Below, piece by piece: positions 15,952-18,577 of a stretch of 64,000 nucleotides of DNA (positions are counted from its first letter, which is position 1; every line of letters starts with the position of its first letter). A program made the position numbers and the translations under genes. The notes under the pieces are model-generated. The model did no database searches and was not told the DNA's origin. It saw nothing but the letters and a program-made list of their open reading frames with translations. This DNA comes from Bdellovibrio sp. ZAP7 (GTDB lineage Bacteria; Bdellovibrionota_B; Oligoflexia; Oligoflexales; RGVZ01), in contig CAMDKS010000002.1 of NCBI GenBank assembly GCA_945900755.1, positions 1-64,000 on the forward strand, given 5' to 3'.

Positions 15952-16320
15952 ATGGTTATAATCAACGATGGCAAATCTGGTGGGCGATCTTGTTGCCCCA
16001 TAGGAAAAAACGTTTTGTCGGTGGTCCCTGCTGAAGTTAACCAAATAAGGGCGGGAGTGTGTCTTGCCGATGAAGTTGCCACAGGGATTTCGGCCATGAC
16101 CTCGCCATTTTGTACTAAAATTACTGCTTCCTTAAAATTTCAGCCCGCAGGCACAGCCACTTACGGGAAGGCCAATTCATCGGGAAAATTAGGTCCTATT
16201 GCCGCCACGTATCATTTAAACGACTGCTGTGCTTGCCCTGAAGGTTCCGTTATGATTGGCGGTCACAGTAACGGAGACAATTCGTGTTCTGATCAATGCG
16301 TGACGATTCTCAAAAAATAG
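15952..16320 (+). pseudogene. Truncated Cys-rich secreted-protein fragment
   Basis: The frame is open from 15922, where a stop precedes it, to the TAG at 16318-16320. The first ATG gives 122 residues. There is no signal peptide, although the content (RSCCPIGKNVLS, YHLNDCCACPEG, CSDQCVTI) is that of a disulfide-rich exported domain. The only G-rich tract (GGAGGGGGG) is more than 20 nt from the ATG. The last 75 bp recur almost exactly at 16706-16779. The simplest reading is the 3' part of a gene that lost its lipoprotein leader; a short real gene is the alternative. Confidence 0.45.
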
Positions 16321-16332
16321 TCCTGAATAGCG

Positions 16333-16359
16333 AGTCAATGGCGCGAAAGCGCCAGCGAC
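16333..16359. repeat. REP-like palindrome, copy A
   Basis: AGTC-N2-TGGCGCGAAAGCGCC-N-GCGAC. The GGCGC/GCGCC arms are perfect around a GAAA loop. The 15-base core recurs in inverted orientation at 19768-19795, again with flanking AGTC/GAC. It follows the stop of the Cys-rich fragment. Confidence 0.5.
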
Positions 16360-16394
16360 GTGTGTCCTGATCCGAAGGCGAAGGGAGCAAATTA

Positions 16395-16779
16395 ATGATC
16401 AGACGTTCAAAAATTAGAATGCTTCCGCTAGAAATTACTTCTACGATGATAATCTGTTTTTTATCAGTAACGTCATGCAAGCAAGATTCAAATAGCTTTT
16501 CCGGGTCACAAAGAACCGCGCCAGCGCGCAAACCACGATGTAATTAGCCAGAGGTTTACATACTCCCCAGGATCAGCAGAGTTAGTGATGAAAATCCCGG
16601 GCGCTGATAGAGGAGTTGATGACACTTTGAACGTAGCATCCAAGGTGCTCAACGAATCCCAAAGCATTCTCATTCATTTCAATTAAACACTGGTGCAATT
16701 TAATTTCCGTTATGATTGGCGGTCATAGTATGGGAGAAAATTCGTGTTCTGATCAATGCGTGACGGTTGTCAAAAAATA
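16395..16779 (+). pseudogene. Decayed lipoprotein gene (leader, frameshifted middle, duplicated tail)
   Basis: 16395-16547 encodes 50 residues with a good ribosome site (GGGAG) and a lipobox (FLSVTSC), then stops at TAG. About 10 bases later another frame is open for about 40 codons (reading SPGSAELVMKIPG, then VDDTLNVASKVLNESQS) to a TAA near 16685. From 16706 to 16779 the DNA matches the last 75 bp of the fragment at 15952-16320 with few changes (VMIGGHSxGxNSCSDQCVT, then VKK and a stop). Together these look like the leader, middle and tail of one lost secreted lipoprotein related to the upstream copy. The links between pieces are inferred. Confidence 0.45.
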
Positions 16780-16807
16780 AAGCACTATTTAAGGCTTTTT
16801 TATTTTC

Positions 16808-16891
16808 AGCCTATAACCGTATATCAATATGTTATAGGCTTGATTTTATTTAAATATCAGCCTATAATTGATTTTAGACGAGTTATAGGCT
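16808..16891 (+). promoter_or_regulatory. Promoter nested between two identical-geometry inverted repeats
   Basis: Two palindromes with 9-bp perfect arms AGCCTATAA/TTATAGGCT lie at 16808-16840 and 16859-16891. Each has a 15-nt spacer, and they are offset by 51 bp. A near-consensus promoter sits across them: TTGATT at 16840-16845 begins on the last base of the first palindrome, a 17-bp spacer follows, and TATAAT at 16863-16868 overlaps the left arm of the second. Transcription would start near 16875, with GAGG at 16905-16908 and the ATPase ATG at 16917. This is operator-like geometry for repression of the ATPase gene. Confidence 0.65.
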
Positions 16892-16916
16892 GGATTTCTT
16901 GCATGAGGCGCAATGT

Positions 16917-18350
16917 ATGTTCGTAGGCCGCAAAAACGAAATGAAAACTCTCCAAGCAATGACCTCGAACCCGCTGGCTCAGGTTGCGGTCCTCTATGGT
17001 CGACGACGCATTGGAAAAAGTGCGCTAATCCGTGAAGCGTTGCAAAATACAGGCAAGATCCTTTTTTTCGAAGGCCTTGAAGAACAAAGTCAGAGCGCGC
17101 AAATTGATAATTTTTTGTTTCAATTAAGACAACAGATCAGCTGGTCTCCCCCTTCAAAGACACCCTCGTCCTGGCGAGAATGTTTAAGCCTATTAACGCC
17201 CATTTTAAAAAAGGAGAAATATTTCATCGTCTTTGACGAGTTTCAGTGGATGGCCAACTATCGGCACACTTTGGTTTCAGACCTCAAAATGATTTGGGAT
17301 CAATACTGGAGCAAAAGCAAAGTTCAAGGGCTGATTCTTTGCGGCTCTATTGCATCATTCATGGTCCGAGACGTCATCAAATCCAAAGCGTTCTATGGTC
17401 GAATTCAAACCATCATCCACTTAAAGGATCTTCAGCCAAAGGATGTTCGGGAACTTTTGCCCAAAAGAAGCTCCCAAGAGACTCTCTTAAACATGATGCA
17501 TTTTGGCGGAATCCCCCTCTATCTCAGGCAAGCTCAAGAATACCTATCTTTATCTGATGCAATCAACCACCTCGGGTTCAAACCAAACGGCTACCTTGTG
17601 GACGAATACCAGCGAATATTCCTAAGTCACTTTGGAAAATCCCAGAACTACCGCCGGCTAATTGAATACCTTGGCAAACACATGCATGGTGTTTCCAGAA
17701 AAAAGACCTCCGAAGACCTCGGAATAAGTGTTGGCGGCACTCTATCACTGATGCTTGATGACCTCGAATCAGCAGGATTCATCAGTGCTTACACCCCCTT
17801 CGATAAACCAGAAAATGCACGTCTTCGCAAATACCATCTTACCGACCCCTACATAAACTTCTATTTTTCCTTTATCAAAGGAAACTTAAAGCAAATAAAC
17901 GCAAACACTAACGGCCATAGCTCTGGAGATCTCTTTTCCTATATACAAGCCACGCCCAAATACCTCTCGTGGCTAGGATGGGCCTTTGAAAATTTTTGCG
18001 TTCGCCATCCGCACCTGATTGCAGCCGCACTTGGTTTTTCAGGAATTAACTACAGGTGTGGACCATACTTCAAAGCCAAAACCATCGATCAACCAGCCAT
18101 GCAAATAGACCTCCTGTTCGACCGTGGCGATCAAACCATCGTAGTTTGTGAAATGAAATACTCTATGAGCCCCATTGGGCTTAGCGTGGCAAAAGAAACC
18201 GAGAAAAAAGTCGAGATACTAAGATCGATTACAAAAAAAACAATTGTCACAGTTCTTGTAACGAACAGCCTACCAAGTCGAGAGCTCCAAAAATCGAATT
18301 ATTTTTACAAAATAATAGATATCGAAGCACTCATGTTATGCGCCAATTAA
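16917..18350 (+). CDS. AAA ATPase with DUF234/PD-(D/E)XK-like C-terminus
   Basis: 477 residues from the ATG at 16917 (GAGG 8 nt upstream); an in-frame TTG 18 nt earlier lacks a site. It is a predicted ATPase of the archaeal-type family (COG1672-like). It opens with FVGRKNEMKTL, then Walker A GRRRIGKS (about 28-35) and Walker B YFIVFDEFQWM (about 104). A winged-helix segment (KTSEDLGISVGGTLSLMLDD) sits near 275. The C-terminus carries MQIDLLFDRGDQTIVVCEMK near 405, which fits the D...ExK core of a PD-(D/E)XK nuclease fold. The gene lies in a decayed accessory stretch and its promoter is flanked by two palindromes. The family's function is not established; a nucleic-acid-directed or mobile-element role is inference. 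Confidence 0.8.
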   Translation: MFVGRKNEMKTLQAMTSNPLAQVAVLYGRRRIGKSALIREALQNTGKILFFEGLEEQSQSAQIDNFLFQLRQQISWSPPSKTPSSWRECLSLLTPILKKEKYFIVFDEFQWMANYRHTLVSDLKMIWDQYWSKSKVQGLILCGSIASFMVRDVIKSKAFYGRIQTIIHLKDLQPKDVRELLPKRSSQETLLNMMHFGGIPLYLRQAQEYLSLSDAINHLGFKPNGYLVDEYQRIFLSHFGKSQNYRRLIEYLGKHMHGVSRKKTSEDLGISVGGTLSLMLDDLESAGFISAYTPFDKPENARLRKYHLTDPYINFYFSFIKGNLKQINANTNGHSSGDLFSYIQATPKYLSWLGWAFENFCVRHPHLIAAALGFSGINYRCGPYFKAKTIDQPAMQIDLLFDRGDQTIVVCEMKYSMSPIGLSVAKETEKKVEILRSITKKTIVTVLVTNSLPSRELQKSNYFYKIIDIEALMLCAN

Positions 18351-18577
18351 AAATGGTCGAAAAGGTTTCCAAGAGGCATGGTTACGCCTGCGGAGGGATT
18401 TCACATGCGAAAAATTATGGATTGACAAGGCCTACAAGGCTCACTTAAGATTAAATCTCCTGACATGTTCAATGGAAGTCGCTTTCACACCTTAAAATAC
18501 AGTGTCCTTGAAAATGCGGTAAAAAAATGCATGTTTCATCCTATCGTCTGTTAAGAAATCCTGTGGGTGGGGGTCCG

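Follow-up and report, generated by a model that had tools for sequence, protein, structure and literature searches.

Positions 16,808 to 18,350 of the window analysed here, a 64,000-nucleotide stretch of Bdellovibrio sp. ZAP7 (contig CAMDKS010000002.1), hold a single ATPase-nuclease gene preceded by two palindromes that lie across its predicted promoter (Table 1). An earlier note on this DNA had described the product as an AAA ATPase with a PD-(D/E)XK-like tail, and that description holds. The protein matches Pfam ATPase_2, and the PADLOC hidden Markov model (HMM) PDLC04984, which defines PDC-S27, matches it over its full length (residues 2-472, E 2.1e-100), as it does 62 of 62 homologues. We place the gene start at the ATG at 16917; the listed 483-amino-acid open reading frame (ORF) from the TTG at 16899 is a mechanical maximum. 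The AlphaFold2 model (62 sequences; mean predicted local distance difference test score 94.1, predicted template modelling score 0.91) comprises an AAA+ domain, a winged helix at about residues 261-308 with a recognition-type helix (274-285) and a wing (289-308), and a C-terminal PD-(D/E)XK fold. In the nuclease tail, D398, E412-x-K414 and E358 are invariant across the 62 homologues, and because these residues and Walker A are both invariant, the window enzyme is probably active.

The two palindromes have identical arms, AGCCTATAA and TTATAGGCT, each pair enclosing an N15 spacer whose sequence differs, and they are offset by 51 bp, or about 4.9 helical turns, much as the earlier note had it. 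Perfect 9-bp inverted repeats with loops of 10-20 number 11 in the window; only this pair shares arms, and no arm-sharing pair arose in 100 dinucleotide shuffles. Across the 65 contigs (2.9 Mb) of the genome and in 57 relatives from its class, the pattern AGCCTATAA-N15-TTATAGGCT is confined to this locus. Rfam returned no match in the window. The sigma-70-like promoter TTGATT-17-TATAAT (16840-16868) matches 10 of 12 consensus bases. It shares one base with palindrome 1, which lies upstream of the -35, and overlaps the left arm of palindrome 2, which holds the -10, so that both halves do touch a palindrome, as the earlier note had claimed. Promoter matches of such quality are not rare, with 4 in 2.1 kb against 3.4 expected.

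Table 1. Features of the ATPase-nuclease locus, in window coordinates.
Feature	Position	Strand	Basis or remark
Palindrome 1, AGCCTATAA-N15-TTATAGGCT, promoter-distal	16808..16840	.	unique in genome
-35-like hexamer TTGATT	16840..16845	+	promoter match
Palindrome 2, AGCCTATAA-N15-TTATAGGCT, gene-proximal	16859..16891	.	29-bp CCTA-to-TAGG span common to clade
-10-like hexamer TATAAT, within palindrome 2 left arm	16863..16868	+	promoter match
PDC-S27 ATPase-nuclease gene, 477 amino acids	16917..18350	+	Pfam, PADLOC HMM, AlphaFold2 model
Walker A GRRRIGKS, residues 28-35	16998..17021	+	GRRR-x-GK invariant in family alignment
Walker B region FIVFDE, residues 103-108	17223..17240	+	family alignment
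Winged helix, residues 261-308	17697..17840	+	model secondary structure; positions 275, 276 and 295 track half-site base
PD-(D/E)XK nuclease core E358, D398, E412, K414	17985..18263	+	invariant residues and fold

The palindromes are a feature of the family rather than of this locus. A search of the host genome with the window protein returned 12 family matches, one of them a fragment, and eleven lie outside the window gene. Most of these paralogues have tandem palindromes upstream in a similar layout and with different sequences, with arms such as TTATCCGCACAGATAG (L017), TGATTTATCTA (L034), CAGCCAAAT (L037) and CTACAAACGTC (L035). We sampled a further 80 relatives from GTDB genomes of many phyla and 20 from viral contigs, and observe the same layout among both: usually two tandem dyads shortly before the start codon, their starts 50-60 bp apart. 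At 66% of 123 loci the best upstream stem scores 10 or more, a level reached by 2.7% of shuffles; a score of 12 or more is reached at 46% of loci and in 0 of 369 shuffles. Stems of at least 9 are present upstream of about 79% of homologues (80, many phyla) and in 13% of 229 upstream regions of neighbouring genes (p=7e-26). The earlier note had named two outcomes that would refute its reading, homologues lacking palindromes and palindromes beside unrelated genes; neither materialized, and most homologues have palindromes of the same geometry upstream. Among AAA_14-type ATPases, we found no dyads upstream of long ORFs at L320 and L321 of the same genome or at L322 in G041; a fourth locus, L323, is uninformative because the ORF chosen there is a non-ATPase.

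Geometry is constant, and the arms are not. In the window's clade, CCTA...TAGG spans of 28-30 bp end to end occur at 32 of 44 genes, and the exact window motif reappears in L097, a Verrucomicrobial locus whose protein is 43% identical; elsewhere in the genomes tested, AGCCTATAA-type arms are absent. Looking for this one arm sequence beside homologues, as the earlier note suggested, would miss most of the family because arms vary from clade to clade. On the protein tree the arms sort as CCTAT, TCCGCAAA, GCCAA/GGCC and TTTTGAGCA, following protein clade and not host. Arm similarity rises with protein identity (Mantel rho 0.24, reached in 0 of 500 permutations), and at least 6 bp of arm are shared by 33% of pairs at 40-50% protein identity against 9% at 35-40%, while members within the host genome have no more arm sequence in common than unrelated genes do. 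The L017 palindrome pair is unique to its own gene in the genome, and sites of Verrucomicrobial members are likewise genome-unique, solo or remnant sites excepted. Members of the CCTAT clade have either T or G directly ahead of CCTAT, a base that has changed about six times on the tree. The columns that best track this choice, 295, 275 and 276 of about 460, all fall in the winged helix, and position 275 varies in the same direction in 3.5 of 5 independent pairs and in the opposite direction in none. We take this tracking as a lead rather than proof. One gene, at G062:C30:24982-26534 (L278, L098), has three palindromes around it, among them a hybrid whose left arm is CTTCC and whose right arm is GGCTG.

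Site and gene move as a unit. L141 and L145 belong to different genera within the host's own family and have 1575 bp in common at 97.4% identity. The stretch begins 173 bp upstream of the gene, takes in the palindromes and the whole gene, and stops 7 bp beyond it, between unrelated flanks; this common unit holds the ATPase-nuclease gene alone, which argues for a single-gene system. The region is missing from the genus-mates of L141. A larger segment there, L141 2490-6296, contains the ATPase unit along with several dispersed repeats of 40-150 bp; it measures about 3.8 kb in G041, and G039, G040 and G042 have about 65-150 bp in its place. Because the other repeats are included, this empty site gives no exact ends. 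For the window locus, the interval from thyA-dfrA to yebC contains no such gene in relatives, whose DNA between dfrA and yebC is different. The block of 16.3-18.5 kb singled out by the earlier note is thus absent from relatives as far as the gene goes, and no base-exact empty site was obtained among them, so its junctions are not placed to the base.

We consider it fairly probable that the family is a horizontally moving single-gene cassette that diversifies orthogonally and recognizes its own sites for autoregulation. The palindromes would then be binding sites for the gene's own product. The product contains a DNA-binding domain in its winged helix, and the dyads stand at its own promoter only, both as expected of an autoregulated repressor. 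Each gene would carry its own cognate sites, usually two tandem dyads upstream of its start codon, and the AAA+ protein would use its winged helix to bind half-sites, acting as a dimer or a larger oligomer and presumably dependent on ATP. Bound protein would hold down its own promoter, a reading supported by the promoter overlap in the window, and a potentially dangerous ATPase-nuclease would thus be kept rare until a trigger releases repression. Restriction and defence effectors often must limit their own expression. Arms and winged helix would diverge together, allowing about twelve copies to persist in one genome without cross-control. The earlier note had proposed an autoregulated single-gene element with protein-binding palindromes, and family-wide sites of constant geometry support it; we infer the binding, the repression, the trigger and any role in defence.

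Several observations weigh against this interpretation. A strong dyad is missing in a fifth to a third of homologues, and two haloarchaeal and several viral-contig members have no dyad of clear type. A promoter embedded in palindromes, which the earlier note described, is seen in the window, but family-wide occlusion of the -10 is unsupported: in a crude scan, the best -10 fell inside a palindrome at 42 of 97 loci against 40 expected. The correlation between winged helix and half-site is not significant under phylogenetic pairing (p=0.125). Finally, the stop codon of some genes is followed by a palindrome, where simple promoter repression has no need of one.

These downstream copies would fit a different role for the sites: they could mark the two ends of a minimal mobile or homing cassette and be the target of the nuclease, with the palindrome-ORF-palindrome arrangement forming from, or collapsing to, a solo palindrome. 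In the Verrucomicrobiaceae, the ORF is flanked on both sides, by a palindrome that runs up to the ATG and by another that begins at the stop codon; ten Verrucomicrobial genes have this second copy, and in five genomes the framing copies lie exactly 1452 bp apart. The pattern is otherwise absent across 387 genomes of the order. L120 and L057 also have a downstream palindrome, as does L140, where the arms are its own. At the L096 site, the gene is missing from G105, which retains exactly one palindrome, and from G097, which retains one of the window's arm type, while G062 has bare flanks with neither gene nor palindrome. G142 keeps the last 61 residues of the gene together with the downstream palindrome. 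The confined unit common to L141 and L145, missing in genus-mates of L141, fits the same picture. However, ordinary homologous recombination deletes the DNA between 47-bp direct repeats and is enough on its own to produce solo palindromes. The downstream palindrome is missing at the window gene and in most clades, we saw neither recent duplicates within one genome nor a target-site duplication, and the protein has no transposase, recombinase or known homing nuclease domain, its Pfam matches being to AAA-type families only. Cassette ends seem unlikely to us. The downstream copies and solo sites do leave room for such a role in addition to autoregulation. The palindromes might then also be the nuclease's address, making the gene a recombinase-free, mobile or addictive one-gene cassette that has its target copied to both ends, leaves a solo footprint on loss and co-diversifies its specificity with the winged helix; we regard this extended proposal as unlikely.

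An alternative that does without protein binding treats the palindromes as RNA or cruciform hairpins, acting as an attenuator, as a terminator or by sequestering the Shine-Dalgarno sequence. Arms can be long, measuring 16-21 bp in L017, the two L017 copies differ by paired changes in their arms, and the Verrucomicrobial right arm holds a Shine-Dalgarno-like sequence beside the ATG. Against this, palindrome 1 of the window precedes the predicted -35 and would stay untranscribed, spacers keep one length (N15, half-site span 28-30) but vary in sequence, and arm sequence follows the protein, with the correlated positions in its winged helix. We consider hairpins improbable. That the palindromes are operators of another, host-encoded regulator would fit the promoter overlap in the window, but we reject this highly improbable explanation, as the arms differ among the paralogues of one genome, are shared by related genes across phyla and are absent elsewhere in the host genome. 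What remains preferred is self-recognition by the gene's own product.

We also looked for the sites in viral DNA as possible phage targets. Few viral stretches (3, 3 and 7) contained exact site patterns. None of these lies beside an ATPase gene and some are inside coding sequence, and we treat them as chance. Six viral-contig stretches (L305-L310) have exact AGCCTATAA or TTCCTATAA N15 palindromes with no ATPase gene nearby; some of their arms extend to 10-12 bp, and these too are probably chance. No close DNA relatives were found in phages.

The surroundings of the window gene are fairly described as the gene remnants of the earlier note, with two imperfect 76-bp repeats of a gene's 3' end and two dispersed repeats around the ATPase gene. 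The 76-bp direct repeats, at 16246-16321 and 16705-16781, correspond to the 3' end of a small reading frame that contains cysteine, and their sequence suggests a decayed duplicated gene. A repeat of about 60 bp at 16324-16384 has dozens of copies in the host genome and genus-mates, one of them upstream of the paralogue L027. At 18349-18458, a 110-bp dispersed repeat adjoins the ATPase stop codon, with copies 84-91% identical in G037 and on contigs C58 and C9 of G000. Other copies reach further left, and the 3' end of the ATPase gene seems to replace the left end of this one.

Cognate sites offer a direct handle on PDC-S27, a candidate without known mechanism, and predict what its protein binds. 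Paralogues of one genome with their sites allow an orthogonality matrix, the family is a natural collection in which the co-divergence of protein and DNA can be followed for an AAA+ winged-helix protein, and solo sites are genomic footprints that report past gene loss.

PDC-S27 is a PADLOC phage-defence candidate, catalogued by its protein and with antiphage activity unproven, and is among the commonest unvalidated candidates, especially in Archaea (PMC12988326). The window gene shares with it the full-length HMM match, the ATPase fused to PD-(D/E)XK, the single-gene organization and the patchy spread across phyla. Cognate palindromes, co-diverging sites, gene framing and solo-site footprints are not mentioned in the passages considered (PMC12988326) or in the other papers searched. 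Eight annotated plasmid contexts contain no recurrent partner gene, although no systematic neighbour analysis was made. Open-licence papers on DUF234, COG1672, SSO1545 and PDC-S27 yielded nothing on such sites. The protein family is thus already known, while we did not find its cognate palindromes described in the open-licence literature.

The best structural and sequence matches are the ATPase_2 structures SSO1545 (2fna) and PABY2304 (2qen), which have the same AAA+ and winged-helix fold; their chains are of about 350 amino acids, and the alignment leaves the nuclease tail of the window protein uncovered. We know of no sites for either. Archaeal Orc1/Cdc6 proteins (2qby, 2v1u) likewise combine AAA+ with a DNA-binding winged helix, and Foldseek gives E 2.4e-9 to 1w5t and 5.7e-8 to DNA-bound 2qby. 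Orc1/Cdc6 initiators bind inverted repeats near their own genes. Unlike them, the window family has a fused nuclease, many orthogonal copies per genome and no pointer to a replication origin, and because about twelve copies are scattered in one bacterial genome, it is unlikely that a gene of this type marks an origin. In regulation, the nearest parallel is RptR, a defence-island autorepressor that acts on its own defence promoter through tandem palindromic sites (PMC12255303), the feature that it shares with the locus described here. RptR, however, is a small helical protein that is a repressor in its own right and has a single conserved 6-bp site (PMC12255303), whereas the putative repressor of the window family would be the effector itself, with a site that varies by clade.
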